From an uncultured Chthonomonas sp. (GTDB lineage Bacteria > Armatimonadota > Chthonomonadetes > Chthonomonadales > Chthonomonadaceae): DNA of 38,960 bases. Of this stretch, positions 1,332-38,161 are shown in pieces. A program made the position numbers and the translations under genes. Where the stretch lies: NCBI GenBank assembly GCA_903859705.1, contig CAIONQ010000142.1:1-38960 (forward strand), given 5' to 3'. A model generated the notes under the pieces. The model was not told the DNA's origin. It searched no databases and worked only from the letters and a program-made list of their open reading frames with translations. Numbering within the stretch: position 1 is the first letter of the stretch; each line of letters opens with the position of its first letter.

Positions 1332-2465
1332 ATGTACGCAGAACTTGCACGGTTGATAGGATTTCTCAAGAGTCATGAGCCGACCTCCGCTGAAGTGTGG
1401 ACATCGGGAATAGCAGGCACTGCACTCCTGCTTATGGCTATCTCAATAACTGTCCGTCGCCGATCTGCGCGGCGCCAATCAACATTTTCCCCGGATGCAA
1501 TAGCGGCGGAAGTGCGCAACTACAATCAAATAGACGAATCTGATGAGGTTGATACGAGCTGGAGGATACGTGCAGGGAGGCTGTTGCAGCCTGCCTTTGC
1601 TATTGCCGGGCTGGCTATGGTTCTGTTTGGTTTGCATGGTGTTATTATCCGTACGAACCTGGATGATGGCGATCAACACTATTTTCTGGGCGACTATGTA
1701 GGGGCATCGCTGAGTTATCATCGGGCTCGGCGTTTTGCACCAGATCTTGACAGAGCACATCTCATGGAAGCGCGCTGCCTTATAGCATCTGGCCGACTCA
1801 ACGCGGCGATAACAGAGCTTAAGCTGGCTTCCAGTACTTCAAAAGGTGCTGAATGTTTTGCTTTGCTGGGCAAAACCCTCCTGGGTGCCCAAGAACCTCA
1901 GCAGGCTGCCGAGGCATTTGAAACAGCTCTGCAACGGATGCCGGATGATGAAACCTGCTTGCTTGCTTATGGCCTGTGTATGGAGAAGGCCGGAGACTTT
2001 GATAGGGCATACAGGGTATATAGCCACGCTGTTGATATCAACGATCAGGATGCCCTGTGCCGAATCCGATTGGCAACGTGCCTCCTTACCCATGGCGCAA
2101 TGGATGAAGGCATTGCAAATTGCCGCAAGGCAGTAAAACTGGCGCCACGTAGCGGGCTGGCACACTACACGCTTGCTACCGGCATGGCGCGTTGTGGCGA
2201 TTTTTCTGATGCTCTCAGTGAGTTCAGGCGATCAGCCGATCTCGACCCAACAAGTATCAGTACGCGCCTTAACATGGGCGTTACATTTTCTATTCTTGGC
2301 CAGAAAGAACGTGGAGCGGCTGAGATTGAGACGTGCCTGCACATGAAGCCTGTAACCGAAGATGATACTCAGGCTATTCGCACAGCCCGTACCTTGCTGA
2401 GCCGATTGCATACTGCATCTACAGCTTCTACTGAAGTTGGCCCGAGAGTGAAGGATGAATTATGA
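1332..2465 (+). CDS. Membrane-anchored TPR protein
   Basis: A 377-residue protein. A first membrane segment at about residues 24-40 is followed by a basic stretch (RRRSARRQ); a second segment lies at about residues 86-107; roughly seven 34-residue tetratricopeptide repeats then fill residues 110-350. The positive-inside rule puts the N-terminus outside, the 45-residue linker in the cytoplasm and the TPR domain in the periplasm. TPR domains are protein-binding scaffolds; the partner is not evident. The start is supported by GAGGA at 1320-1324, which overlaps the stop of the PEP-CTERM gene. The stop overlaps the next TPR start by 4 nt (ATGA), so the two are translationally coupled. The neighbouring PEP-CTERM gene suggests a role in surface protein handling, which is inference. 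Confidence 0.85.
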   Translation: MYAELARLIGFLKSHEPTSAEVWTSGIAGTALLLMAISITVRRRSARRQSTFSPDAIAAEVRNYNQIDESDEVDTSWRIRAGRLLQPAFAIAGLAMVLFGLHGVIIRTNLDDGDQHYFLGDYVGASLSYHRARRFAPDLDRAHLMEARCLIASGRLNAAITELKLASSTSKGAECFALLGKTLLGAQEPQQAAEAFETALQRMPDDETCLLAYGLCMEKAGDFDRAYRVYSHAVDINDQDALCRIRLATCLLTHGAMDEGIANCRKAVKLAPRSGLAHYTLATGMARCGDFSDALSEFRRSADLDPTSISTRLNMGVTFSILGQKERGAAEIETCLHMKPVTEDDTQAIRTARTLLSRLHTASTASTEVGPRVKDEL

Positions 2466-3601
2466 TTGCTTTGCTTCACAGTGCATCCCACCATCTCACT
2501 GTGCTGTGCTTCTTTGTTACGGTGCTCAGCAGCGCACTGGCCCTGCGCTTTAGATTGGGATGGCGCAGAGCCCGCAAACCAGATTATGACGATATGGCTG
2601 CATATTCCCGAGCGCTGTTTGCTGAAGACAAAGAGCTAATAGCACTCAAGAACCCATCTTATCGCATTATTGCTGAAATGAGGAGCACAGGCATTCTTAG
2701 TGCGTTGGCAGGTTCAGGATGTGTTGTGTTGGCAGTATTGTCACTGGCAATGGGCATACGCTCCGAAATGCAACGGTCACTCATACTGGATGCGGATGTT
2801 CTGGCACAAACCAGGCAGTATTCGCAGGCTAAAGCAAAGTGTCTGTCAGCGGAGCGCCTCGACGCGCTTGCACCCGCACCGCATGCTATTCGCGGCAGAA
2901 TACTTGTTGCGGAAATGCACTTTGCGGAAGCGGTTCCAGAACTAACACTTGCTGCTAATCAACAACATTCAGAACCAGCGGCGGCACTTGAACTTGGAGG
3001 CTGCCTGCTTCGGCTCAACCGCCAAACCGAGGCAGAATCATGGTTTCGCAAAGCTCTGGCGATGGCACCCAGAAATTGGAAGTGCTATGCAGATCTCGGG
3101 CAGTGCCTTGCAGCAAGTGGCAAATTGGATGATGCGGCACGGCTTTTTCGCTTTGCCGTGGCTCTCAACCCGCAGAGCGAGAAGGCCAATAGCTGCCTGG
3201 GTATGGCACTTCAAGCGTTGGGGGATAAAGAGCAGGGGCTATATTACCTTGAAGTAGCGGCTAAGAGTAACCCCAACTCGCTGGTAGCGCTAAACGCACT
3301 TGGCACGAGCTATGCCAATGCAGGGCGCTTTGCCGAGGCTGCGGCACAGTTCAGGGCAGAGATAGCACAGGAGCCACGATTCGCTGCCGGGTATTTTAAC
3401 CTTGCTAGAACGCTGGAACAAATGGGAGATGAAAGTGCTGCCAGGGCGGCTTACTTATCCTATTTCAGAAGATGTGCAGCCAGTCCAAACGGCACGATTG
3501 TTGCCGCGCCTGAGGCGTCACGTGCCTTCCAGAGGCTGATTGTTGCTGGTGCCCACAGGCAACAATCTGCTAAGCAGAACAGGGCCAAATTGGTAAACTA
3601 G
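2462..3601 (+). CDS. Membrane-anchored TPR protein, coupled to the previous gene
   Basis: A 379-residue protein with the same plan as its upstream neighbour: a hydrophobic segment at about residues 10-28 followed by RFRLGWRRARK, a second segment at about residues 78-98, then some six to seven TPR units to about residue 340 and a basic tail. The predicted topology places the TPR domain in the periplasm. The ATG overlaps the previous stop by 4 nt, typical of coupled translation and of partners made in fixed ratio. It is probably a diverged duplicate of the upstream gene; the two differ clearly in sequence. It ends the plus-strand gene run, followed by 1.26 kb without a convincing gene. Confidence 0.85.
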   Translation: MIALLHSASHHLTVLCFFVTVLSSALALRFRLGWRRARKPDYDDMAAYSRALFAEDKELIALKNPSYRIIAEMRSTGILSALAGSGCVVLAVLSLAMGIRSEMQRSLILDADVLAQTRQYSQAKAKCLSAERLDALAPAPHAIRGRILVAEMHFAEAVPELTLAANQQHSEPAAALELGGCLLRLNRQTEAESWFRKALAMAPRNWKCYADLGQCLAASGKLDDAARLFRFAVALNPQSEKANSCLGMALQALGDKEQGLYYLEVAAKSNPNSLVALNALGTSYANAGRFAEAAAQFRAEIAQEPRFAAGYFNLARTLEQMGDESAARAAYLSYFRRCAASPNGTIVAAPEASRAFQRLIVAGAHRQQSAKQNRAKLVN

Positions 3602-3615
3602 CGGGTAGTTTAACA

Positions 3616-3671
3616 GGTCACAAAGTGTGACCAAAATTGTCACGGTGCAGTCACATGTTTGCGCGCATTAT
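3616..3671 (+). promoter_or_regulatory. Pho-box-like promoter 1 (11-bp direct repeats)
   Basis: TGTCACG (3638-3644), four bases, AGTCACA (3649-3655), ten bases, then CATTAT (3666-3671) as a possible -10. Two further GTCAC/GTGAC cores lie upstream at 3616-3632 as a perfect palindrome (GGTCACA-AAG-TGTGACC), with its first core 22 bp, two repeat periods, upstream of 3638. The 7+4+7 spacing and the 10-nt gap to the -10 match the architecture known for PhoB-activated promoters. The transcript would run into non-coding DNA. The binding protein is inferred from architecture alone. Confidence 0.45.
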
Positions 3672-4083
3672 TAAGTGGGTGGCCTCACCTGCTGCAAATA
3701 GAGGCGGCCTTTCGTATAGAAATACCACCATTACGATTGGCCTTAAGGCGAGCCAGTTATTTCCCGATGAATCCTGGCTCGCTTCTTCTTTTCTAAATTC
3801 TGCAAGTGTTGCTCCGTTGGCCTGGCTCCCCACAAATTGTATAGTGTGTTTGAAACCCATGTTCTAACCTGAATTGGCAGGTAAATTCATATGATGGTTA
3901 CTGCAGAGTATGCTATTCAACTTGCTTCCAAAAAACCTCGCATCGCCTCGTTATCGTCACGATAACCGGTGTTTGCCTATGCTAATAAGCATAGGTGGCG
4001 TCATCAGAGCATAAACTACCAGTCTGTATCTACTAAGTTTGTCAAAATCATATCCAATAACTGTACCTATATGTCCTGAATTG

Positions 4084-4117
4084 TGTCACACCTGCGTCAC
4101 GCAGGTTCCCGTATACT
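4084..4117 (+). promoter_or_regulatory. Pho-box-like promoter 2
   Basis: TGTCACA (4084-4090), CCTG, CGTCACG (4095-4101), exactly ten bases, then TATACT (4112-4117), which matches five of six bases of a sigma-70 -10 hexamer. No -35 hexamer is needed in this promoter class. The second half-site also lies inside a perfect inverted repeat, ACCTGCG-TCA-CGCAGGT (4090-4106). A transcript would begin near 4124. Confidence 0.55.
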
Positions 4118-4123
4118 TTAGTT

Positions 4124-4296
4124 GTGCAGGGCGATATAGAGGTTTCATCGCTATATACTCGGCGGCATTATCTAGTGGCAATCGCGTGTACGCTGAGACG
4201 TGTTTAATGGCAAGATCCTAATACTCCCGTGAAAGAGCCCGTCCCCATGATGGGACAAGCGAACCGGGCCTGGCTGATCATTCAGCCGGGCCCGAG
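4124..4296 (+). ncRNA. Candidate small RNA downstream of promoter 2
   Basis: Predicted from a promoter ending at 4117 and from structure: ATATAG/CTATAT near 4135-4157, a GTCCC/GGGAC hairpin at 4241-4256, and a 13-bp stem at 4265-4277/4282-4294 with a four-base loop (TCAT). The strong stem contains one T-G pair, which pairs as U-G only in plus-strand RNA; on the minus strand it would be a mismatch. CCCG at 4238-4241 could compete with the left arm of the strong stem, as in attenuators. No start codon with a Shine-Dalgarno site lies inside. There is no clear U-tract after the stem, so the 3' end is uncertain and might instead be the ACAGC/GCTGT hairpin plus TTTT near 4412-4432. No known RNA family recognised. 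Confidence 0.3.
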
Positions 4297-4857
4297 CCAC
4301 GTGTGGTTGCACTCATATCCCCCACAAACCCTGGATAATGATTAAGAACGCATTGGTAAAACATGAGGTTGGCAAACCTTCAATTGTGATCGCCAGCTGC
4401 CTGGCGTTGGTACAGCGATTGTTGCTGTTTTGCCTCGCCGATTTCGTTACGAATAAGCCTGTGTGATGCGTGCATCACTTGCCCGAAGTGTCACAAATTC
4501 AGGGCAAATTTTATACGGCTCGGTCTCAATTCTGGCCACTCAGTCATTGGTAAGGCATGCACAATCGCATAAAATATGTAGTTACTGGCTAGTAAAGCAC
4601 TTACACCCAAATGTCGGCTAAATTTACTTGTGGCGTTCAGGGGGTCGTATAACACGAAGTTTCAAGATGCACTGTGTGTAAGGGGGGTCCTCGTGACGGG
4701 GCATGCTAACGTATAACCAATCAGTTCACGGCGTTGTTAATTTAATAGGCCCTGCCGGAATAAGCGCTACTATGCGACATGGTAAGTTCTGCGGCTTAGA
4801 TGCCAATTCAGGGGCAGCAATACATTAAAAATGTGGGCGAGGTGTGGATGATCTGAC

Positions 4858-5847
4858 CTAATAACTGGATTCTGGTACATAAGGAACCGCTACGCGCAAC
4901 GAAGCTGGAAGTATCGAGGCTTCAAAGTGCCGAAGCGCATCTTCGGTGCCATCAACGCGTGCCAGTATGGGGCTGTTCGCGTCTAACACCACATTAGTGC
5001 CCTTCAAAATCCGCACACCCTCCATGCCAACATGTGCGCCAGACATCAGGGCGGGAATAACTCGGCTAACAAACTGGTCTGTATTTGTATCGATAATACA
5101 TACGTTCAGTTTGCCGGCAGAAACCGCAGAGCCTGGTGCAGCTTTAATTCCATTGCCAGCATACTCACCTATGCCAACGGTAACCATAAGTGGAGCGCCT
5201 TTGTACTCTTCTCCATCTACCGTAATCTTAAGGCTGGTTGGCACAAATTCTCTAACCTGCCTTACAAGCCGGTATGGATATCGAAAGCTGCTGAGGATAC
5301 GTGAACTGTTGAGCTTGCCAGGGCGGGGCACAACGGTATCCAGGCCATAGGCAATGGAACCCATGAATGCCGAGCCATCCACAGTACCTGTATCCATACT
5401 CGCAAAATGGTTATCGAGAATGGTAGCCACTGCCCGTTCTAAATCCTGGTGGATCCCAATGGAGCGTGCTATGGTATTCAGCGTTCCGCAGGGGATTATA
5501 CCGAGGGCAGTGCCAGTTCCGGTTAGAACGGCGGCAACGCGGCTGATGGTATCATCACCGCCTGCCACCACCACCATTGAATCCTGAGCGGCAACGGATT
5601 TACGCGCAATTTGGATTGCGGCGTCTGTATCCAATGTTTCAACAAACTGCCACGAAAAAAGATCTGGCAAGCTTCGTACCGCGTACGTTACAGCTTTACC
5701 AATCTGCTCTCGCCGCGATATATGCGCATTGCGTCCTGCCTTTGGGTTGTACAGAACCGTGAAGCGCCGAATCTGGCGGCTGAGCTGATGTCCGTATTGT
5801 TTGTATGTGTCCGTCATGCTACTTTGCGATGCGGCAGTCATCTTCAT
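4858..5847 (-). CDS. Diacylglycerol kinase / YegS-like lipid kinase family protein
   Basis: A 329-residue protein of the DAGK-catalytic fold, which phosphorylates lipid hydroxyls with ATP at the inner face of the cytoplasmic membrane. Visible motifs: YNPKAGR (33-39, nucleotide-binding region), GGDDT (96-100) and the PxGTxN-type motif IPCGTLNTIAR (118-128). The canonical motif is GGDGTxNEV; here the fourth Gly is Asp and the following segment reads ISRV, so nucleotide binding may be altered. ATG at 5847 is preceded by GGAG with a 4-nt gap; M3 is a possible alternative. A Pho-box-like promoter sits about 50 bp upstream (5899-5932). Phosphate-responsive control would fit lipid remodelling, but substrate and control are inference. 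Confidence 0.85.
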   Translation of the reverse strand: MKMTAASQSSMTDTYKQYGHQLSRQIRRFTVLYNPKAGRNAHISRREQIGKAVTYAVRSLPDLFSWQFVETLDTDAAIQIARKSVAAQDSMVVVAGGDDTISRVAAVLTGTGTALGIIPCGTLNTIARSIGIHQDLERAVATILDNHFASMDTGTVDGSAFMGSIAYGLDTVVPRPGKLNSSRILSSFRYPYRLVRQVREFVPTSLKITVDGEEYKGAPLMVTVGIGEYAGNGIKAAPGSAVSAGKLNVCIIDTNTDQFVSRVIPALMSGAHVGMEGVRILKGTNVVLDANSPILARVDGTEDALRHFEASILPASLRVAVPYVPESSY

Positions 5848-5898
5848 GTTACTCCACCGCGGTTGTTGGCAAATACCATTCGAAGTTGGTACATCTAC

Positions 5899-5932
5899 AT
5901 GCTAACATCTGTTCTGTGACGGCAGGGTTACA
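5899..5932 (-). promoter_or_regulatory. Pho-box-like promoter of the lipid-kinase gene
   Basis: Read on the minus strand: TGTAACC (5932-5926), CTGC, CGTCACA (5921-5915), exactly ten bases, then TAGCAT (5904-5899) as a -10 matching four of six. The first half-site differs from the consensus TGTCAC by one base. The predicted transcript start, near 5892, gives a leader of about 45 nt before the ATG at 5847. Confidence 0.5.
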
Positions 5933-6483
5933 ACTTTCTGCGCCAGAACCATTGCATATCAATACTGTGAGACATTGGCACTTACTGTTAAACCGCCAAC
6001 TATTCTGAACGGTTGCGACAGTGCCAGGTATATGCTGGGCCAAAAATAAGATGCGCACTCATTTGCGCTAAGAACGGACCTGCAACGCCGGCCCTACGAA
6101 CTGAACTCTCCCATTACAGGTCTGGAAAACTCACCAGAATCCACCTGGGCCAGAAGGACATACAGATCAAATACCCTTTGCGGAGCGCACCGGGCCGATA
6201 CTACGTACACTCTGATCTCTTCGACGCCGACCGGCAACAACATGTTCCAATCCGTTGCAGTCTGCAGATGTGACTGTTACAATATATGGTTGCACATAGC
6301 CTGTGTATTGTTCATTAATTTAGAGCCATGAATAAGATTATCCACCAAATTGCAGGCAAGTTTAGGCACCGACGCTTTATTTGTACAATGCAGAGACAAC
6401 TTCTAGTTCCATCTGCAATCTTGCGAAGTAGGTGAGCAAAGCTTGCTTTGCATTATTCCATGCGTGCTGAATCATGGCTCCTG

Positions 6484-6540
6484 CGTCACGATACAGTCAC
6501 GATTTTAGTCACGTCGAAGTCACGGCTGAGGCAGTAAATT
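6484..6540 (+). promoter_or_regulatory. Double Pho-box-like promoter
   Basis: Four near-identical heptamers in the same orientation: CGTCACG (6484-6490), AGTCACG (6495-6501), AGTCACG (6507-6513) and AGTCACG (6518-6524), with core spacings of 11, 12 and 11 bp, so all lie on one face of the helix. After exactly ten bases comes TAAATT (6535-6540), a -10 matching four of six. This is the most regular of the four arrays in the window. The predicted start near 6547 lies about 490 nt upstream of the TPR start codon, so it makes either a long leader or a separate RNA. Confidence 0.55.
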
Positions 6541-6581: not shown

Positions 6582-7034
6582 TGGCAATTCCATCCGTGTC
6601 CCCTGATAACTTTAACACGTCCTGACAATAGTATTCATTCAGTGTTTCCCTATTTATGGTAACTGCAATACCAGCGCAAGATGGCGGAACCACACATATG
6701 GCGCATTTAGCCACAGTAAACTTCCTGCATCTTCCAATCTCATTATAACGATTGCCTCGATTAAATTCCAGATTTGGTGGATAATATAATAACTACGATC
6801 AGATGTTGTGTGGTTTCTATTCCTGTTCCGTTGCAGTCATGGCTGTGGGGAACCCTGTATGGCATCAGTATCGTATGAATCTTTTAGATGTCTTCGCGCA
6901 CTTTTTCCTAAACTATAGTGCGTGCATGATGCGCTTCTGTATTGTGAGGCCGAAGTTACCAGTAGCGAACTGAAGTTCGCTGAACGGAGAGTTGTTAACG
7001 GATGCGATGTGATATTCCAAGAGGAAATAGCTGG

Positions 7035-8348
7035 ATGAAGTCCGCCCGCGGTGTGTGCCTTGCAGCAGTCATTGCGGCGGCGTCAGTATGGATGAGTGTG
7101 TCTCCCGCTGTCGCCGGTCCCATCAGGAATGACCCTGTTACATCTCAAAAAGAAGATGCCAATGCTTTTATGAACCCGGGCTATCTGGTTGCTGCCGCCG
7201 GGCTTATATTAAGTATTCTAGTTTTGCTTCGAATCCGTAAGGAGTACCGCCTTCTGCGTCACGGCGAATACGGATGGAATGCTGACTATCGGCCAGATCT
7301 ATTGGATAGCGGAGATACCGTGCCCACTGGCCTTGATCCTGCATCCATTGCTCGGCGGCGTGGTAAAAGGTTTTATGGTGTTATTACCATGCGTCGGGCC
7401 CTTACCCTTGTGGTTACGCTTGCAATGTTTAACATTGGAGTAGTTACGGGTACGCAGTTCCTTTACACAGCCATTTGTGTTGAGAATGGGCGTGTAGCGG
7501 TGGCAAGTAGAAATTATTCTGGCGCTATCGATGAATACAACAAAGCGTTGCGTTTCGACTGGGGCAATTCTCAGCTTCATTTACTGATTGCAGATGCGTT
7601 TCTACGCCAGGCAAAAATTGGCAATGCCATCCCGCACCTTTTGATCTCTACCAAGGCTGAGCATCCAGATCCTCGCGCCTGGGTGATGCTTGGCGATTGC
7701 CTGCAGGTAGATCACAGGCTGGATGATGCAGAAGAGGCATACAGGGAGGCCATTGCTCTTAGGCCAACAGATGACGATACCTATCTCAAGCTCAGTATGT
7801 GCCTTGAGAAGCTCAATCGCCGTGAAGACGCTGTTCGTGAACTTCGGCGCGCCATCAGGATTGACCAAACCAACGTTCGTGCACAGTCCAGCCTTGGCCG
7901 TTTGCTGATTACCCTTGGGTTTCTGGACGAAGGAATAGAGCACCTACGCGCTGCTTCGGCTCTGGTTCCAGAGGACATCAGTGGGCACCATGCTCTCGCT
8001 GATGCTTACGTAACAGCGGGCCGATTTTCAGATGCAGCTGAACAGTTTAGGGCTTCGCTTGCCATTCAGCCAGAGTACGCCCGAGATTACTACAATCTTG
8101 GATTTGTGCTTCAGCAAGTTCATGACCCTGCGGGTGCCCGTGAGGCCTACCGCATTTATGTTGCCATGACAACGCACAAGTATGATCCTGCAGACGTGGT
8201 TATGAAGAAGCAGGCGCAAGCGCTCATAACAAAATCTGGTACTCCATCTATCGAAAGCAGTACCACGCCTCATCCAGTAACCCTGCCACAGATGATCAGC
8301 GTGAAGCAGGCTCTGGATCAAATCAAAGAGTTGGAACCGGTCAATTGA
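7035..8348 (+). CDS. Exported, membrane-anchored TPR protein
   Basis: A 437-residue protein from the start at 7035, chosen because GAGGAAA lies 9 nt upstream and the protein then begins with a clean signal peptide (MKSARGVCLAAVIAAASVW, probable cleavage after AVAG). The frame extends 11 codons further up to an ATG at 7002. A membrane segment follows at about residues 48-66, then a basic cytoplasmic loop, a second segment at about residues 118-140 and seven or so TPR units to about residue 400. The TPR domain is predicted to be periplasmic, as in the two TPR proteins at 1332-3601, though the three diverge in sequence. A Pho-box-like array lies 500 bp upstream. A 40-aa membrane protein follows, perhaps on the same transcript. 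Confidence 0.85.
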   Translation: MKSARGVCLAAVIAAASVWMSVSPAVAGPIRNDPVTSQKEDANAFMNPGYLVAAAGLILSILVLLRIRKEYRLLRHGEYGWNADYRPDLLDSGDTVPTGLDPASIARRRGKRFYGVITMRRALTLVVTLAMFNIGVVTGTQFLYTAICVENGRVAVASRNYSGAIDEYNKALRFDWGNSQLHLLIADAFLRQAKIGNAIPHLLISTKAEHPDPRAWVMLGDCLQVDHRLDDAEEAYREAIALRPTDDDTYLKLSMCLEKLNRREDAVRELRRAIRIDQTNVRAQSSLGRLLITLGFLDEGIEHLRAASALVPEDISGHHALADAYVTAGRFSDAAEQFRASLAIQPEYARDYYNLGFVLQQVHDPAGAREAYRIYVAMTTHKYDPADVVMKKQAQALITKSGTPSIESSTTPHPVTLPQMISVKQALDQIKELEPVN

Positions 8349-8613: not shown

Positions 8614-10602
8614 CTACTCTTTATCAAGCAACACCGTTTCCACGTCAAACCGCAAGCCATCCCCGGCTGCTGCCGGGTTCTTGCCTACCAGCTTGATAAA
8701 TATCTGGTTCTGGCCCTCGTTTAGCTCCAACGTTCCAAGGGGCATTGCAGCATGTGGGCCCCGCTTTGTTGCGTAGGTGTCTGCCTTTGGACCCATGGCT
8801 CGCTCATTCTGAAATAGCTGCACTATGCAGCCATCCGGGCTGGTTATAGGCTCGATGGATACCCTGTATTTGCCAGCGGCGGGCACCGTGCAAAGAAACG
8901 ATATTAGGTGCTCTCCAAACATGTTTTCACCCTTTGCCTGCAAAGATAGGCTGCGATGTTCCCTATCGTACTGCTCAGAGAGTTTGGTGAGCACGGCATT
9001 TTGCATTGAAAATGCATGAATTGGGGTGTACCAGCCTGGCGAAAACACCAGTCTGGTTGGATCCGTAACTGTGCGTGCAGCCACATCCGGCAGGCTCCAC
9101 GGTGTGGTGGGTGGCTTCTCAAGATACAGCCAGGTTACACTTGTATAATCTGCAACAAAATCGTTGTGCTCTGGGGCGTGTTCCATGTCCAGCTTAAGGG
9201 TGTGTTTAAAGCTGTATTCGTCCTGCAGAAACAGTCGATACCCGCCGCTCCGAGCCATTGGGCGGCTGTACTGCAAGCAACCACTTAACGGGTAGCTTGC
9301 CCGGGCTTCCCAGCGCCCTGGCACATCGTACCAGCCACCATTAAAGAAGTCTTCCGATCCTGTGCCATGGATGCGTAACTCGCCATCCAGCCATGCCTGA
9401 TCGTCTCCCTCAAAAAATGGGGTTATTCCTGGAACAGAGCCCTGTGCTTGCAGTGCCACCCCAACTACATGGCCACGCCCTTCTACAGTTACGTAATTGA
9501 ATGGCTTACCCTGTGTGGTTGGGCTCTCTCGCCGCCATGTGGAATAGAAGTGCCCTTCGCCCGGTTGAAGCGGCTTATCGGCAGTTATTACATCCGCAGT
9601 TACATCTATCGCCGAATCCCCGGGGGCATCCGAGGAAAGTTCTATTCTTGCCGATTTCTGAAACGGCATTGGAAAATAACAGTAGTCAGTGTCTGAAACC
9701 GCATCGGTGCCTATCATTACGGAGCGCATGGCTGGCTGCCCCCAGGCAGCACCAAAGAAATCTCCGGCCGGACAGAGTATAGCCGGAGACTTGTTGCCAT
9801 CCCAATAAGCTCGCAGCACTACGGCTCTATCTTTGCGTGCCAGGGAGTGGGCGCCCTTAATCCGGATTCCAAGCACACGCCCGCCACCCCGTGCGTTTAG
9901 TAGCGAAACCGTGCCGCCTGGCTTTAGCTGGCCAGTAACACGTGTAACCTTAACATGGCTGCCTTCTGGTGTGCCGAATGCAGAAACGTCCCCACCCGTT
10001 GTGGCGAGCAGTTTCTGGGCACGCTCCATGGCAGGCCCTCTTAGCTCCGCTGCATCAGGCTGAAAGGTGGTTACTGGCGCAGCGGCATCGTAGGTTGCGT
10101 AGTTTATCTGGTAGAACTGCATCAGCTTGCCGCGCAGCACTACTTTGCACGATTTTTGATAGGGCATTGGCACATAGCAATAAAACCCGCCAGAGCCATA
10201 TCCGGAAAGTGGCGCCACAAATGGAGGCTTGGTGCCAAGAAATAGTTCGCGAAATCCTATAGTTACACGTGGCGTAGTTTCGCCATCAAAGTAAAACTCC
10301 AGTGGATCGTCGGTAGGAGTGGGGGTCCAGATTCTGGTTATACAGCCAGGTCCCTTCAAATCGGCAACAACCAGTCCATCTCCCTCTTTACGCACGAAAG
10401 AATAGCGGCCAGAAAAGCCATCATCGTTTCCACCAGTGCGATCGTAGCTGGAGATTGAGTCGGTGCGTACTGAGGACTTTAGCTGAGGCAGCAGGTCCAT
10501 CCGTGAGAAGTTCGCTATTCCGGGCGGAGGGATTGCCTGTGCGCTGGCAAACCCTGTGGCCGCCACACATGCGGCAGCGATGGGTGCAATCAATCGGGGC
10601 AT
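8614..10602 (-). CDS. Secreted DUF2961 / GH172-like glycoside hydrolase
   Basis: A 662-residue protein with a signal peptide (MPRLIAPIAAACVAATGFASAQA) and a DUF2961 core. This family is now GH172, whose characterised members act on alpha-D-fructofuranosides or alpha-D-arabinofuranosides and assemble as ring-like oligomers. The signature is visible twice in the core: FFEGDD with E398 and HGTGSEDFFNGGWY with E417, the two acids expected to be catalytic. The segment after about residue 510 looks like a beta-sandwich carbohydrate-binding or accessory domain. The ATG follows GGAGGAG with a 10-nt gap, and that site lies within the end of the upstream GNAT gene (1-nt gap), so the genes are coupled. 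Substrate is not predictable from sequence; a furanoside glycan is the family-based guess. Confidence 0.85.
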   Translation of the reverse strand: MPRLIAPIAAACVAATGFASAQAIPPPGIANFSRMDLLPQLKSSVRTDSISSYDRTGGNDDGFSGRYSFVRKEGDGLVVADLKGPGCITRIWTPTPTDDPLEFYFDGETTPRVTIGFRELFLGTKPPFVAPLSGYGSGGFYCYVPMPYQKSCKVVLRGKLMQFYQINYATYDAAAPVTTFQPDAAELRGPAMERAQKLLATTGGDVSAFGTPEGSHVKVTRVTGQLKPGGTVSLLNARGGGRVLGIRIKGAHSLARKDRAVVLRAYWDGNKSPAILCPAGDFFGAAWGQPAMRSVMIGTDAVSDTDYCYFPMPFQKSARIELSSDAPGDSAIDVTADVITADKPLQPGEGHFYSTWRRESPTTQGKPFNYVTVEGRGHVVGVALQAQGSVPGITPFFEGDDQAWLDGELRIHGTGSEDFFNGGWYDVPGRWEARASYPLSGCLQYSRPMARSGGYRLFLQDEYSFKHTLKLDMEHAPEHNDFVADYTSVTWLYLEKPPTTPWSLPDVAARTVTDPTRLVFSPGWYTPIHAFSMQNAVLTKLSEQYDREHRSLSLQAKGENMFGEHLISFLCTVPAAGKYRVSIEPITSPDGCIVQLFQNERAMGPKADTYATKRGPHAAMPLGTLELNEGQNQIFIKLVGKNPAAAGDGLRFDVETVLLDKE

Positions 10603-10603
10603 A

Positions 10604-11344
10604 CTAACGTTTCTCCTCCGAAACTACTGTAACGGTTTCCTGCGAAAGTGGGGTGATTTGGCTGCCAGCATCATCGAAGTTTCTGGGCGCCAGCCAGCGC
10701 TCGAACTCCATTTCTCTTATTGGCCATTCTTTATCGATTACTGAGTACCAGGCCGTGTCCCGGTTTCTGCCTTTTGTAACAATGGCCTGCCGAAACAGCC
10801 CCTCAAAGCTAAAGCCTAGCCTGAGTGCCGCCCGCCGAGATGGAGCATTGAGTGCATTGCATTTCCACTCGTATCGCCTGTAACCCAGCTCAAAGGCGCG
10901 CCGCATCATCAGGTACATGGCCTCGGTGGCTTCTGTTGTGCGTTGCAGAGCGGGCGAATAGGCCAGGTAGCCCACCTCAATGCATCCGTTTAATGGATCA
11001 ATTCGCATAAAGCTTGCCATTCCAACGGCCCTGTCAGTTGCCTTCAAAACGATGGCATAAAATTGAGGATCGGTCTTAATTGCACACTCATGCAGCCACG
11101 AAAGTGTGTCTGCTTCGGTAGCAAATGGGCCAGATGGCAGGTAAGTCCACATAGCTCCTTCCGCATCCTCCGCAAATGCAGCATGCAGATCCGCGCCATG
11201 AACAGAAACGTTCAATGGCTCCAGCCTGCAAGTTCTACCTGCCATAACTTCATGTGGGGGAAATGGTACCCCGGTCCATTCTGGTATCGGTTCCCCTACG
11301 GGCAGATCTGATCGCCATATGAGGCTTCTATCCAAGTTGTGCAT
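10604..11344 (-). CDS. GNAT-family N-acetyltransferase (RimJ/RimL type)
   Basis: A 246-residue acetyltransferase of the RimJ/RimL-like GNAT group, using acetyl-CoA. Typical strands are seen: YAIVLKATDRAVGMASFMRI, then IEVGYLAYSPALQRTTEATEAMYLMM, the acetyl-CoA-binding region, then EWKCNALNAPSRRAALRLGF with the usual Asn and Arg pattern, and the FEGLFRQAIVTKGRNRDT tail found in this subgroup. It sits inside the glycan-degradation operon: its start is 12 nt after the preceding stop and its stop is 1 nt from the next start. That tight coupling hints at acetylation of a sugar or small molecule, but many such enzymes act on protein N-termini or antibiotics, so substrate is open. Confidence 0.85.
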   Translation of the reverse strand: MHNLDRSLIWRSDLPVGEPIPEWTGVPFPPHEVMAGRTCRLEPLNVSVHGADLHAAFAEDAEGAMWTYLPSGPFATEADTLSWLHECAIKTDPQFYAIVLKATDRAVGMASFMRIDPLNGCIEVGYLAYSPALQRTTEATEAMYLMMRRAFELGYRRYEWKCNALNAPSRRAALRLGFSFEGLFRQAIVTKGRNRDTAWYSVIDKEWPIREMEFERWLAPRNFDDAGSQITPLSQETVTVVSEEKR

Positions 11345-11356
11345 CCCTGCTCCTAT

Positions 11357-13357
11357 TTACTGTTGGCTTGTTCCTGCCCGTACTGGCAGGGTATCCCAAT
11401 CCTGAAGCCTCGGCCCCTGTGTTGGTGCCTTCCAGGCAACAAATATGGGTGTGCTGCTTCGCTCCCATCCTCCACTGCCTGAAGGATCGCTCATTGCATA
11501 TTTTGCCTCACCCGTGGCCCGGTTACGATACTCGTATACCGGGGCTTCAGCGCCAGAGGGCGCGTGGCTTGATGGTAACGCGTAAAACAGAGCGTTTTCT
11601 GCGGTTATTTGCAGCTTCCCGGTGAGTTTGTCCTGAACGAAGCCCATGGTGCCCTGTGTCTGCCGACCGGGAGGCATGGCTAGAAAGGGGATATCAGCAA
11701 TATCAGCTGACTTAAATTCGCCGCTTTCCCCGTAGACGTTCAGGCGCTCCCGGCATACGTAGATGTTTCTTTTCCCTGTTCTCAACGTGTAAACCGGGGA
11801 TGGCAGGTAAAGCGCAGGGCTATCCAAACTCAGCCCATACATCATCTGGTTGTACTCGTAGCGAGGGGTGGGGTCCTGGTTTTGTGTGAAGGTGCGCGTG
11901 TAGGTTCCCTCCAAAAAGATTCGTTTGCCTCCACTGGCATCTAGGAAAGGGTGCTGTGTTGGGTTGTAGAAGCTGTAGTTTTGATGAGAGATAATCTTGC
12001 GCCCATAAACCCAGGGGCCAGTAATTGTATCGGCCTCTGCATACCACACTTCACCCAGGAGGCTGCTGCCACCGATCTCCTGCACTGTCATCACCCAACG
12101 GTGCCTGAAAGCATTCCAGAATACGGAGCCGGTTGCTGGCCGAATGGCCTTGCCTGTTTCCACATCCCGCAGGTTGTACAGCCCTTCTTCAGGTTTTAAC
12201 AGCCCCAGCTTAACCAGCTCTTGTTGGCGGGCAAAATCCAGTTCATCTGTGGCAGGCTTCCAGGAATATGTAAGGCTGCCATCCAGATTTCTATCCAGTT
12301 TCGTTTTGCTGCCGCTATATTGCGTTCCGGCTGCTATAGGTGTAAAAGCCTCATAACTTTGTTGGCCAGTAATTTTATCGAGATTCGCCGGAAACCGCAC
12401 GATTGGGATGGGGGTCATATCATGCGAAGCTGTGTTCACCATTGATAAGCCATGCCAGCCTGTTTTAACAGGATGGCCGGCGGGTGCTCTCGGAACCTCT
12501 ATGCTCAGTTGCACCGCGGGTTTGAACTCTGCGGCTTGCTCATCAAAAACCGCGATGCCTCGTTCCACGGCGGTTCCGAGGTTCTTCATCCGCGAGTAGG
12601 TACAGATCAGACTATCGGTGCCGTTGCGAGCCTTAACGGTACACAGGCCACCAATCCAAATAGGGCCGGCCTGGCTGGTTTTGAACATCCCTCGCGCAAA
12701 GCCATCGCCATCAGTTACATAGTTGAGGTTTATGCCAGTTTCCGGATTCAAACCACCAACACCTGGCAGAAGAGATGTTGCCCCCGATGTGTGAAAGTTG
12801 CCCAAGGGGTAGGCCGGGCGCGCTGTATCCCCATAAAACCACCACAGGCGCCCATGAAAGGGCGCGGCCATTACAGAATCTTGCCCGCTAACCTGGCCAT
12901 TAAGGCCTGGCTGCAGTGTGGGCGCCGGCAACCCCAGCATTAAGGTATCCCTGTAGATTCCTTCGCCGGTGATTCTATAAAGCCGGTCGGCAACGTTCGC
13001 TGCCTTCTTGATTCGGATTGTTGCTGAGCCCCCTGGCTTGATCTCGAGTTTGAGGCCTTCATACCCAAAGGAGTCTTTAGGATACTGATAACCATGGGAG
13101 CTAACCGTGAAGAACACAGTTCTGTTCATAAGGGCGGCGTCATCAAACGCTGCATTGCCGGCGCTATCCGTAAAGTAGCGCACCTCGGCAGTGGTGCGTA
13201 GCTCTACCAGCGGCACACCACGGCCCGTAGCATCATCTACAACCGATATTCGGAAGCGACCGGATACATCGCCCTGCAGCGCCCCTGCGGGACTGGCAAA
13301 CAGGGCTGAGATCAGTGCAAAACACAGACATCCACGCTTGACGGCGCGGGCGATCAT
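11357..13357 (-). CDS. Secreted two-domain protein: transthyretin-like plus beta-propeller glycosidase-like
   Basis: A 666-residue exported protein. Signal peptide at residues 1-26 (ending SPAGA). Residues about 28-125 look like a carboxypeptidase-regulatory/transthyretin-like beta-sandwich (GRFRISVVDDATGRGVPLVEL ending in IRIKKA). The rest has motifs of five-bladed beta-propeller glycosidases or DUF4185-like proteins: RLWWFYGDT, EVWYAEAD, GPWVYGRKI, YSFYNPTQHPF and GKRIFLEGTYT. This fold is shared by GH43, GH32, GH62 and related families acting on furanosides or fructans. It overlaps the upstream GH172-like gene by 4 nt (ATGA), so the two products are likely made together. I cannot assign a family number or confirm catalytic acids. 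Confidence 0.7.
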   Translation of the reverse strand: MIARAVKRGCLCFALISALFASPAGALQGDVSGRFRISVVDDATGRGVPLVELRTTAEVRYFTDSAGNAAFDDAALMNRTVFFTVSSHGYQYPKDSFGYEGLKLEIKPGGSATIRIKKAANVADRLYRITGEGIYRDTLMLGLPAPTLQPGLNGQVSGQDSVMAAPFHGRLWWFYGDTARPAYPLGNFHTSGATSLLPGVGGLNPETGINLNYVTDGDGFARGMFKTSQAGPIWIGGLCTVKARNGTDSLICTYSRMKNLGTAVERGIAVFDEQAAEFKPAVQLSIEVPRAPAGHPVKTGWHGLSMVNTASHDMTPIPIVRFPANLDKITGQQSYEAFTPIAAGTQYSGSKTKLDRNLDGSLTYSWKPATDELDFARQQELVKLGLLKPEEGLYNLRDVETGKAIRPATGSVFWNAFRHRWVMTVQEIGGSSLLGEVWYAEADTITGPWVYGRKIISHQNYSFYNPTQHPFLDASGGKRIFLEGTYTRTFTQNQDPTPRYEYNQMMYGLSLDSPALYLPSPVYTLRTGKRNIYVCRERLNVYGESGEFKSADIADIPFLAMPPGRQTQGTMGFVQDKLTGKLQITAENALFYALPSSHAPSGAEAPVYEYRNRATGEAKYAMSDPSGSGGWERSSTPIFVAWKAPTQGPRLQDWDTLPVRAGTSQQ

Positions 13358-14523
13358 GAATTCGAACCAACCGCAACCGGAACGGTTAGCCCTGCAGCCC
13401 GGTCGGCAGCGAGCTGTAGGGCGGGAAGTACTCCGGCGGGATTATCCAGATAGAAGTAACAGGTGCCGCTCCAATCATCCTCTCGCCAGAAGTTGCACCA
13501 TCCTCCACTAAGTTCTGCACTCTCCAGATCAATCGGCTGTGGCAGGTCCATTAACTTTGTAAAGCCACCCTCTTCGCCAGTGTCAATACTGATGGGAATT
13601 AGCTTCATGCCTTCCTTATGCATCCTAACTACTTCGGATTTATCCGCCCCGCCAATGGTTTGGATGGCAACCTTGCAGCCCCCTTCAAAGTAGATGGGGT
13701 CTGGAATATGGTATCGGTAGAAGCAGTAATGGCGGGCTTCTTTATCGGCTATCAGGCATCCCTGGTGCCGATGGCTGTACACACCCTGGCCCCAGCCGGT
13801 ACCTATATAGTCTTCTGTGCCTGTGCCACACAGAGTGGGGTTATCTTCTCCGCCGAACCATACCTTCACTTCGCCCTCGCCCCACCAGGAGCCCGCGTAC
13901 CCGGGGTCTACAATCACGCCCAGGTTGCAGCCCAAAAACCTGCCACATCCCGTTACCTGAGGCAGAATGTCAAACTCTTTGCCCAGCACATTGGGGGCTT
14001 CCCGGTGCCAGTAGGCATGAAAGTACAGAGTGTCCTGGGCATGCTGCACATTCATCAGTAAATCCACATCATAGAACAGATGAGAGAGGCGCTTTTCTGA
14101 TTCGTTGGTAAGTGTTATGCGTGCAGCGGTTCTGAATGGCATTGGAATGCTGCAATTAAAGCTTCTGCCTTCAGGATCGGAGAACAGGGCATTCTCAAAG
14201 GCAGTTTTTCGCCCAAGCCCAACTCCAAAGAAATCACCAAGGGGGGCTGATACAGCAGGTGTGGTGGCGTTATCCCAGGTTATATCCAGGCGCAGGCTGC
14301 GCAGCATCTCCGGGCTACGATCGTTAACCGTTACCCAGATGCGCGTAACCAGTCCGCTTCCCTCCACATTCAATAAATCCACCGATTCACCGGCAAGCAG
14401 TTGGTCAAAAGCATGCCCCTTCGAACCACGGTTCTCCAGGCCAGCACTACCCCTGCCGGCACACCGATTTTCAAAACTAATCCAGCGAGTTTCCGCACCC
14501 TCTGGTTTCTTATACAGTTCCAT
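13354..14523 (-). CDS. DUF2961 / GH172-like glycoside hydrolase, no signal peptide
   Basis: A 389-residue, single-domain DUF2961 protein, first gene of the minus-strand operon. It carries the family signature WWGEGEVKVWF with E216 and LCGTGTEDYIGTGWGQG with E237; the 21-residue spacing agrees with the catalytic pair of characterised GH172 enzymes as I recall it. It begins MELYKKPEGAETRW, with no export signal, so it should act in the cytoplasm, in contrast to the secreted family member three genes downstream. The pair would allow outside trimming and inside completion of the same glycan, which is inference. It overlaps the next gene by 4 nt. Confidence 0.85.
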   Translation of the reverse strand: MELYKKPEGAETRWISFENRCAGRGSAGLENRGSKGHAFDQLLAGESVDLLNVEGSGLVTRIWVTVNDRSPEMLRSLRLDITWDNATTPAVSAPLGDFFGVGLGRKTAFENALFSDPEGRSFNCSIPMPFRTAARITLTNESEKRLSHLFYDVDLLMNVQHAQDTLYFHAYWHREAPNVLGKEFDILPQVTGCGRFLGCNLGVIVDPGYAGSWWGEGEVKVWFGGEDNPTLCGTGTEDYIGTGWGQGVYSHRHQGCLIADKEARHYCFYRYHIPDPIYFEGGCKVAIQTIGGADKSEVVRMHKEGMKLIPISIDTGEEGGFTKLMDLPQPIDLESAELSGGWCNFWREDDWSGTCYFYLDNPAGVLPALQLAADRAAGLTVPVAVGSNS

Positions 14524-36307: not shown

Positions 36308-38161
36308 ATGGTGAGTATTCTTAAAGTTGCCGTGCGTGTAACGGCAATACTGGCCTTCGGTTGTGTCTTGAGTTCGGTTGAAGCACAGGCACCGCCGCCC
36401 TTTCCTCCCACTCCTGCAGATATCAAAACGGGAGCCCTCTTCTTAGCAATTAACCACTCTGCTCCTTCGGATGTTTCTACTGTTCGCGCTGCCGAAGCGG
36501 CCGGCGCCGATATCCATCGTAAGAACTGGCTCGGTTACACACCCCTTATGTGGGCCTCTGTTCGGGGCAAAACGGCAACCATAGAAATGCTGATTAAGCA
36601 GGGAGCGCATATCAACGACTCCAGCCCGTATGGCTCTGCCCTCACCTTTTCACTTATCGGCAGGCAGCGCACGGCCGCTCTTGCGCTTCTGGCACACGGG
36701 GCAAGCATCAAGCCAGAAAGGCTGGATAGAACCACGCCGTTGATGTATGCCGCAGCCGATGGATACGACGATGTATTGAAGGCGCTGCTAAAACGGGGCG
36801 CGAGAGTCAATGCGGCAGACCTGGAGGAAGTTACCGCCCTCGTCTATGCCGTAAGAACGGGCCACCGAACCTGTGCCAATCTGTTGCTAAAAGCCGGAGC
36901 CTCCGTATCCGCTGTGGATATACATGGCAGAACTCCCCTGATGGAGGCAGCCATGTGTGGGCAATCTGAAATCGCCTCCGATCTGATTGCAGCGCATGCA
37001 AATGTAAATGCAAAAGACAAATCTGGCAATTCAGCCCTGGCCCTGGCGGCCCGTTATTCTGGCAACCCCGAAGTGGTACAACTGTTATTGAAGCACGGAA
37101 CGGTTGCCGGAAGCAGCCTGAGCATTGCAGCAAACACCGGCAGGGCCCAAACAGCCGCCGTAATTGCCGCTTTTACCCATGCAAAGTCTCCAGCCATTCC
37201 AACAATTACACCGAACTCCGTTATTGGCGCATGCGATAAAGGCGTGCGCGCCATAGAGAACGGCCTTGCGAAGTTTCAGAGCATGGCGCCCTGTGGGGCG
37301 TGCCACCATCAGGGACTTGGATTGATGAGCCTGGGAGTTGCCGCCGAGAGGGGCGTAAAGGTAGATGGAAAGGTGATAGGTGCCTACCTGCAACAGTTGG
37401 GCGAAGACGGCAAGCACATGGGGCCAGTTATCCACAATGCCCTTGCTCACCCGGAGGTTAAGGGCAGTGTACAGGCTGTGGATATAGAGGATATGGCAAT
37501 TGGTGCTGGCTATATGTTCAATGCCATGCTCTCTCACCACGTGCCCGCCAACCCTGGCCTGGCAGAAACGGCCGCCTTCCTGGCATCGCTGCAAGCTGCG
37601 GATGGCCGCTGGATCTATGGCATCGATCGTGAGCCAATGCAGAGCAGCCAGGTAACTACCACCGCAATGATCTGCAACATACTGGTGCAGTATGGCGGCG
37701 GCGCAGAGGGCCCGTTGGCAGAGAATATCCGAAAAGCAAAACAGTACCTTGGTTCGGTGCAGCCCACAGAAACGGAAGATGCCGCAATGAAGCTGATGGG
37801 CCTCCATTGGGTTGGAGCCTCTGCGGGCGAGATTGCAACTGCCAATGCCACACTGCGCAAAATGCAGAACAAAGATGGAAGCTGGAGCCAGAAACCAGGG
37901 ACACCCGGCGATGCGTATGCCACCGGAATGGCGGTGTACGCTCTGAGAACGGCAGCAAATGCCTCTGCAGAGGAGAGCGCCGTAAAGCAGGGAGTGCGCT
38001 ATCTTGTTTACACTCAGGGGCCACAGGGGGCGTGGTTTGTAAATAAACGCACCAACTCTGCAAATAACTACTTCGATTCCGGTTTTCCATATGGCGAAAG
38101 CCAGTATAGCTCGCTGGCAGGCAGCTGCTGGGCAGTAATGGCGCTCTCAACCCTGCATTAA
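36308..38161 (+). CDS. Secreted ankyrin-repeat, CxxCH, terpenoid-cyclase-like toroid fusion
   Basis: A 617-residue exported protein. Signal peptide 1-27 (ending VEAQA). Residues about 45-290 hold seven or so ankyrin repeats (GYTPLMWASVRGK, TTPLMYAAADGY, GRTPLMEAAMCG). Then CGACHH gives C329-x2-C332-H333, a c-type heme or metal motif. Residues about 370-617 form an alpha/alpha toroid like prenyltransferase/squalene-cyclase repeats (LQAADGRWIYG, MQNKDGSWSQKPG, YLVYTQGPQGAWFV). No DxDD catalytic motif is visible, so cyclase activity is doubtful. GGAG lies 8 nt before the ATG. Alternatively the Cys motif binds zinc. Confidence 0.82.
   Translation: MVSILKVAVRVTAILAFGCVLSSVEAQAPPPFPPTPADIKTGALFLAINHSAPSDVSTVRAAEAAGADIHRKNWLGYTPLMWASVRGKTATIEMLIKQGAHINDSSPYGSALTFSLIGRQRTAALALLAHGASIKPERLDRTTPLMYAAADGYDDVLKALLKRGARVNAADLEEVTALVYAVRTGHRTCANLLLKAGASVSAVDIHGRTPLMEAAMCGQSEIASDLIAAHANVNAKDKSGNSALALAARYSGNPEVVQLLLKHGTVAGSSLSIAANTGRAQTAAVIAAFTHAKSPAIPTITPNSVIGACDKGVRAIENGLAKFQSMAPCGACHHQGLGLMSLGVAAERGVKVDGKVIGAYLQQLGEDGKHMGPVIHNALAHPEVKGSVQAVDIEDMAIGAGYMFNAMLSHHVPANPGLAETAAFLASLQAADGRWIYGIDREPMQSSQVTTTAMICNILVQYGGGAEGPLAENIRKAKQYLGSVQPTETEDAAMKLMGLHWVGASAGEIATANATLRKMQNKDGSWSQKPGTPGDAYATGMAVYALRTAANASAEESAVKQGVRYLVYTQGPQGAWFVNKRTNSANNYFDSGFPYGESQYSSLAGSCWAVMALSTLH

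Follow-up and report, generated by a model that had tools for sequence, protein, structure and literature searches.

GTCAC direct repeats as candidate SARP-type operators of a surface-protein regulon in an uncultured Chthonomonas genome

SARP regulators combine an OmpR-type winged helix with a BTAD domain in the fold of AfsR. Published members recognize heptamer repeats at an 11-bp (sometimes 10-bp) pitch, in two to three copies over the -35 element, and bind as cooperative monomers or as a side-by-side dimer, docking sigma region 4 (PMC10936776, PMC5930380, PMC10972967). At the Streptomyces afsS promoter the binding sequences of AfsR and PhoP overlap, so that SARP boxes can look like Pho boxes. 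The regulation of PEP-CTERM/exosortase systems is known mainly via sigma-54 and PrsK/PrsR in proteobacteria, where PEP-CTERM genes, often with the TPR gene prsT as a neighbor, are under the control of RpoN, probably together with PrsK/PrsR (PMC9850573). In Geobacter sulfurreducens, deletion of the SARP-family regulator GSU1771 alters the expression of the epsH exosortase and of PEP-motif proteins in biofilms (PMC10599522). Here we analyze GTCAC direct repeats in a 38,960-nucleotide stretch of DNA (the window; contig CAIONQ010000142.1 of assembly GCA_903859705.1) from an uncultured Chthonomonas sp. of the family Chthonomonadaceae (phylum Armatimonadota), and we propose them as candidate SARP/AfsR-type operators of a regulon that includes PEP-CTERM, TPR, and SARP genes.

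A letter-by-letter reading of the window bore out the boxes and -10-like hexamers reported in a preliminary description of this DNA, including one off-consensus half-site on the minus strand. On the plus strand, the SARP-like box W1 (TGTCACG-gtgc-AGTCACA) occupies positions 3638-3655 and is followed by the hexamer CATTAT at 3666-3671, and a second SARP-like box, W2 (TGTCACA-cctg-CGTCACG), occupies 4084-4101 and is followed by TATACT at 4112-4117. An imperfect box on the minus strand (TGTAACC-ctgc-CGTCACA, 5932-5915), one half-site of which reads GTAAC, stands 68 bp 5' of the open reading frame of a lipid kinase, with the hexamer TAGCAT at 5904-5899. W3 (CGTCACG-atac-AGTCACG, 6484-6501) and W4 (AGTCACG-tcga-AGTCACG, 6507-6524), with a 12-bp step between them, form a single plus-strand array of four GTCAC repeats at pitches of 11, 12, and 11 bp (CGTCACG atac AGTCACG attttAGTCACG tcga AGTCACG, 6484-6524), followed by TAAATT at 6535-6540. 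Every one of these hexamers starts 10 nt past the last heptamer. Immediately 5' of W1 lies a feature absent from the preliminary description, the perfect inverted repeat GGTCACA-aag-TGTGACC (3616-3632, no strand assigned), in which two GTCAC half-sites oppose each other; a hairpin is found downstream of W1 at about 3691-3708.

The GTCAC repeats are real and far beyond chance. Word frequencies were measured in 1.27 Mb of the genome (the first 20 kb of contigs 1 to 100, the window left out), where on average 0.26 GTCAC words were counted per kb and strand, rising to 0.50 between genes; the word is 2.2 times denser in intergenic DNA, which makes up 10.7% of the bases in this sample. Because GTCAC is rare in this genome, about 0.9 exact pairs at an 11-bp pitch are expected in the entire 6.24 Mb, and 16 were found, a result that bears out the predicted genome-wide enrichment. 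A single 3-kb stretch of the window holds four exact pairs against an expectation of about 0.001. Counted by pitch over the whole genome, a 10-bp spacing accounts for 4 pairs, an 11-bp spacing for 16, and a 12-bp spacing for 2, one of the latter lying inside the four-repeat array of the window. Nearly all sites in this genome are intergenic, though intergenic DNA accounts for only about 11% of the bases. The six letters between half-sites are more alike than random (p = 0.0004 against background and 0.02 against column shuffles), which indicates that the motif reaches beyond GTCAC: the W1 spacer, GGTGCA, is one letter off the GATGCA of a PEP-CTERM propeller site on contig C24, and the W3 spacer, GATACA, is near both this C24 spacer and the GATAC of contig C95. 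One-mismatch half-sites gave no clear spacing peak genome-wide and were uninformative.

The fixed distance to the -10 element holds at all four window sites, each of which matches at least four of the six TATAAT bases 10 nt after the last heptamer, and it replicates modestly elsewhere. At independent sites of this genome and of a same-genus genome (G001), 5 of 22 reach this threshold at the preset offset, where the background rate is 3.9% (binomial p of about 0.001); of the 40 offsets scanned, this one has the highest count. A standard sigma-70 promoter scan returned matches no more numerous than in shuffled sequences.

The neighborhoods of the repeats point to surface proteins. Ten other loci with exact pairs in this genome were annotated (C20, C24, C55, C76, C81, C95, C97, C105, C121, and C144); the C95 pairs, at a 10-bp pitch, are counted among them, and two 10-bp pairs and one 12-bp pair (C108, C175, and C30) are left out. 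PEP-CTERM genes adjoin the sites at seven of the ten (C20, C24, C81, C95, C97, C105, and C144), SARP genes at two (C81 and C121), and sigma-factor genes are present at C55 and C76. Most of the adjoining PEP-CTERM proteins are beta-propellers that end in TPEPG...RRRR, and the hallmarks of a PEP-CTERM/exosortase system are all found: the C-terminal PEP motif, the hydrophobic helix, the basic tail, and an exosortase encoded in the genome. Most PEP-CTERM genes that do not encode propellers lack boxes. Two loci echo the window, with TPR, TPR, and PEP-CTERM genes followed by repeats at C95 and a TPR gene, repeats, and a PEP-CTERM propeller gene at C144, and the TPR proteins of all three loci can be aligned. 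The earlier idea of a single regulon with the TPR membrane genes among its members was judged right. At C95 (L247, 11122-11341), the two GTCAC pairs, each with a 10-bp pitch, are oriented against the upstream PEP-CTERM gene; a TATAAT follows the second pair at a distance of about 32 bp and precedes a gene for a 585-amino-acid protein with a signal-peptide-like start.

Candidate regulators of the fitting type are encoded in the genome, with 18 BTAD matches above the curated cutoff. A profile of 19 SARP N termini from this genome matches AfsR (8hvr) with an E value of 9e-28 over 221 positions (3-223 of 229) and mycobacterial EmbR (2fez) with an E value of 4e-23; a winged helix and a BTAD domain thus extend over about 220 residues, as in the SARP/AfsR family. 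Several of the SARPs carry an AAA_35 ATPase. Exact pairs lie upstream of the SARP genes L107, L119, and L120, and L116 is preceded by three half-sites in degenerate form. In G001 the repeats adjoin four SARP genes (L085, L088, L089, and L092). Regulator genes of this type are thus linked to the repeats at C81, at C121, and at the four G001 loci, and not on the window contig. We compared the promoters of two orthologous SARP pairs from this genome and G001 (47% and 60% identical), and the repeats stand out as conserved islands in otherwise diverged sequence (GTCACAAnnTnGTCACA; TTTGCCGTCACG...ATTTGGTCAyA). A third pair, 26% identical, has the spacer GAAACC in common, with GTCAT as the second half-site of the copy in this genome.

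Several further observations were made on SARP genes, ATPase modules, and repeat sites. On C121 (L083, 2274-12748), a SARP-AAA_35 regulator gene and, behind it, an AAA_35-WD40 gene (about 1,070 to 1,080 amino acids) form a unit that is present twice in tandem; a GTCAC pair precedes each copy, and a similar gene pair occurs on C356 of G001. A SARP gene running off C81 and an AAA_35 gene at the start of C122 have the peptide MPNVTREHDAVYEPA in common, so the two contigs are probably adjacent and carry a single SARP-AAA_35 gene between them. L114 (C103) encodes an N terminus that, read by eye, is adenylate/guanylate-cyclase-like, fused to AAA_35; here the same ATPase module seems to be equipped with another kind of sensor head. 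In G001, near-identical GTCACGATCTGGTCACGAT sites at C98:12396 and C579:3954, each followed by the same AATGCAACAATTGGTTGA, apparently represent a duplicated promoter.

Considering these data, we think it reasonably likely that the boxes are SARP/AfsR-type operators of a regulon of PEP-CTERM, TPR, and SARP genes, and they are probably switches of surface-protein genes rather than of a phosphate response. Their layout is that of SARP operators, namely direct repeats of heptamers with 4-nt gaps (11-bp pitch) in at least two copies, with an occasional 10-bp pitch, and the earlier assignment to OmpR-fold-type 11-bp direct-repeat operators with a common promoter geometry was judged right. In the model that we propose, SARP monomers would stand side by side on GTCAC heptamers every 11 bp, where they would substitute for a weak -35 element and recruit RNA polymerase to the -10 element starting 10 nt past the last heptamer. 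Within the window, the targets would be the TPR gene at 7002, the lipid kinase gene weakly, and short or noncoding transcripts past 3.67 and 4.12 kb. At the other loci of the genome, the boxes would serve PEP-CTERM beta-propeller genes, sigma-factor genes, and, in autoregulation, the SARP genes themselves. That SARPs bind the boxes, that they activate rather than repress, and which SARP acts on the window is what we infer from an indirect case, built on neighborhood and on conservation before SARP genes.

A number of observations weigh against this proposal. Most of the 18 BTAD genes lack an exact pair upstream, and no SARP gene is present on the window contig. Conservation in relatives, which the preliminary description had named as a test, is found before the orthologous SARP genes of G001 and not at the window's own boxes, which have no alignable counterpart in this single same-genus genome compared. 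The boxes of the window are placed after, not before, its PEP-CTERM/TPR operon, and no recognizable plus-strand gene follows W1 or W2 before 7002. The gap to the -10 element is 10 nt here, compared with the 8 bp reported for SARPs. Finally, an 11-bp geometry is by itself not enough to tell SARPs and OmpR-type response regulators apart.

In the strongest competing explanation, an unlinked OmpR-family response regulator other than PhoB binds the boxes and controls the PEP-CTERM, TPR, and SARP genes. Direct repeats with an 11-bp pitch are likewise used by response regulators of the OmpR fold, of which the genome encodes 11, the gap of 10 nt to the -10 element is that of a Pho-type box according to the preliminary description, and the SARP genes could be targets of such a regulator instead of encoding the binders. 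We nonetheless regard it as unlikely, since exact pairs occur at several SARP loci but within 1.5 kb at none of the 11 response-regulator loci, and repeats kept before orthologous SARP genes suit autoregulation better.

Less probable again is a role as repressor operators lying over or beyond the transcription start, or a mixture of roles. At C144 a TATAAT stands just 5' of the repeats (GTATAATGAAGTCAC), a dimer might fit the inverted repeat at 3616-3632, and the C95 boxes are oriented against the genes; all three would be compatible with repression. The recurrence of a fixed -10 element 3' of the repeats at independent sites, however, fits activation, and we consider repression a minor contender.

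The boxes might also be Pho boxes proper, that is, PhoB-dependent promoters acting in membrane remodeling during phosphate limitation, as the preliminary description had suggested. They do have TGTCA-like half-sites directly repeated every 11 bp near the -35 position, a property common to Pho boxes and SARP operators, and some sites in this genome, such as GTCACAAAGTTGTCAC at C81, resemble Escherichia coli Pho boxes as generally known. Yet the sole pstS gene (C78), the pst/pho gene that we checked, has no box with zero or one mismatch within 500 bp upstream, and the genes that follow the Pho-like sites are mostly those of PEP-CTERM propellers and of a SARP instead of phosphate genes. A search for boxes before pst, lipid, and exosortase genes had been suggested as a check; beyond their absence at pstS, neither lipid nor exosortase genes turned up with boxes at the sites examined. 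Together with the response-regulator loci without exact pairs, these results disfavor a phosphate regulon, and we hold it to be highly improbable.

That the repeats are a product of chance or a dispersed element without regulatory meaning is barely credible: a reversed-pattern control did yield 11 matches genome-wide against 16 for the real pattern, but it misleads because its word, CACTG, is more than four times commoner than GTCAC in this genome (we dropped it as proof of no enrichment once word frequencies had been measured), and the low expected count, the conserved islands in orthologous promoters, the lack of DNA similarity outside the repeats, and the functional clustering of the neighbors all speak against it.

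At the start of the window contig, an open reading frame on the plus strand (170-1321) encodes a PEP-CTERM beta-propeller (NHL-like) surface protein, recognized by an NHL Pfam match and by its C terminus, TPEPGSIALACCLLTVGVIVRRRKR. Its promoter falls off the contig; the protein is 32% identical to the PEP-CTERM propeller of C144, whose gene has the same repeats 5' of it. Two plus-strand genes for TPR membrane proteins follow, both with Pfam TPR matches: the first (1332-2465) can be aligned with the TPR genes found at C95 and C144, and the product of the second (2462-3601) shares 29% identity with the TPR protein of C144 and 28% with one from C95. A third TPR membrane protein, identified by Pfam and by alignment, is encoded on the plus strand at 7002-8348, about 460 bp 3' of the four-repeat array. 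The minus-strand gene at 4858-5847 encodes a YegS/diacylglycerol-kinase-like lipid kinase (Pfam DAGK_cat and YegS_C). Its inclusion in the regulon was proposed earlier; the box upstream of the gene has a broken half-site, and no orthologue occurs among the relatives examined, the best same-genus match being 30% identical; a scan of the genome collection with the kinase gave no match. The kinase is thus the weakest member of the regulon.

The intergenic DNA of the window was also searched for other content. A dispersed repeat was rejected, as this DNA has no DNA homologue elsewhere in this or the same-genus genome, and a hidden gene was rejected as well, with no coding remnant and a single marginal tblastn match (E = 0.03). 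No Rfam family was found there. Farther along the window, a minus-strand cluster of four genes (8614-14523) comprises two DUF2961 genes, a GNAT acetyltransferase gene, and a gene for a 666-amino-acid protein without a Pfam family, and a protein encoded at 36308-38161 pairs many ankyrin repeats with a C-terminal part matching squalene-hopene cyclase domains, an unusual combination.

If the proposed regulon is real, the control of surface proteins would be added to the roles of a regulator family known above all from Streptomyces antibiotics; such a SARP-type regulon, whose operator can be read, would open a route into the surface biology of a barely studied phylum, and the short DNA motif would be testable and usable for target prediction. 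In the open-license literature, we found no paper that brings SARP regulators together with 11-bp operators and PEP-CTERM proteins in Armatimonadota; on the proposed reading, the kind of operator is known, and the phylum and the target class are new. Tentatively, Armatimonadota may possess a dedicated surface-protein program run by a family of SARPs with AAA_35 signaling ATPases, each member preferring a spacer of its own. Each would read a common GTCAC code at its own promoter and at PEP-CTERM propeller/TPR loci and so deploy a matching set of exosortase-sorted surface proteins.

In comparison with described systems, PhoB/PhoP Pho boxes are likewise 11-bp direct repeats of TGTCA-like half-sites, but the boxes described here show no pst association and have PEP-CTERM, TPR, and SARP genes as apparent targets. 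Proteobacterial PEP-CTERM control (PMC9850573) likewise places a PEP-CTERM gene and a TPR-protein neighbor under a dedicated regulator; there it involves RpoN, probably with PrsK/PrsR, and here 11-bp direct repeats and SARP-like regulators. GSU1771 is, like the regulators considered here, a SARP-family protein outside actinobacteria tied to exosortase/PEP-motif genes, but it has a receiver domain, and the cited portion of its description reports no 11-bp GTCAC operator (PMC10599522). A further parallel is provided by the Streptomyces SARP operators (the afs box of AfsR and those of DnrI, ActII-ORF4, and PimR), which share the heptamers with 4-nt gaps, the 10-bp variants, the doublets and triplets, and the position over the -35 element just 5' of the -10 element, and whose regulators share the OmpR-type winged helix and BTAD domain, often with an ATPase and a TPR tail. 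In contrast to these, the system in Armatimonadota has a GTCAC half-site, several regulators with an AAA_35 ATPase, a gap of 10 nt instead of 8, and, as apparent targets, PEP-CTERM surface proteins rather than antibiotic clusters.
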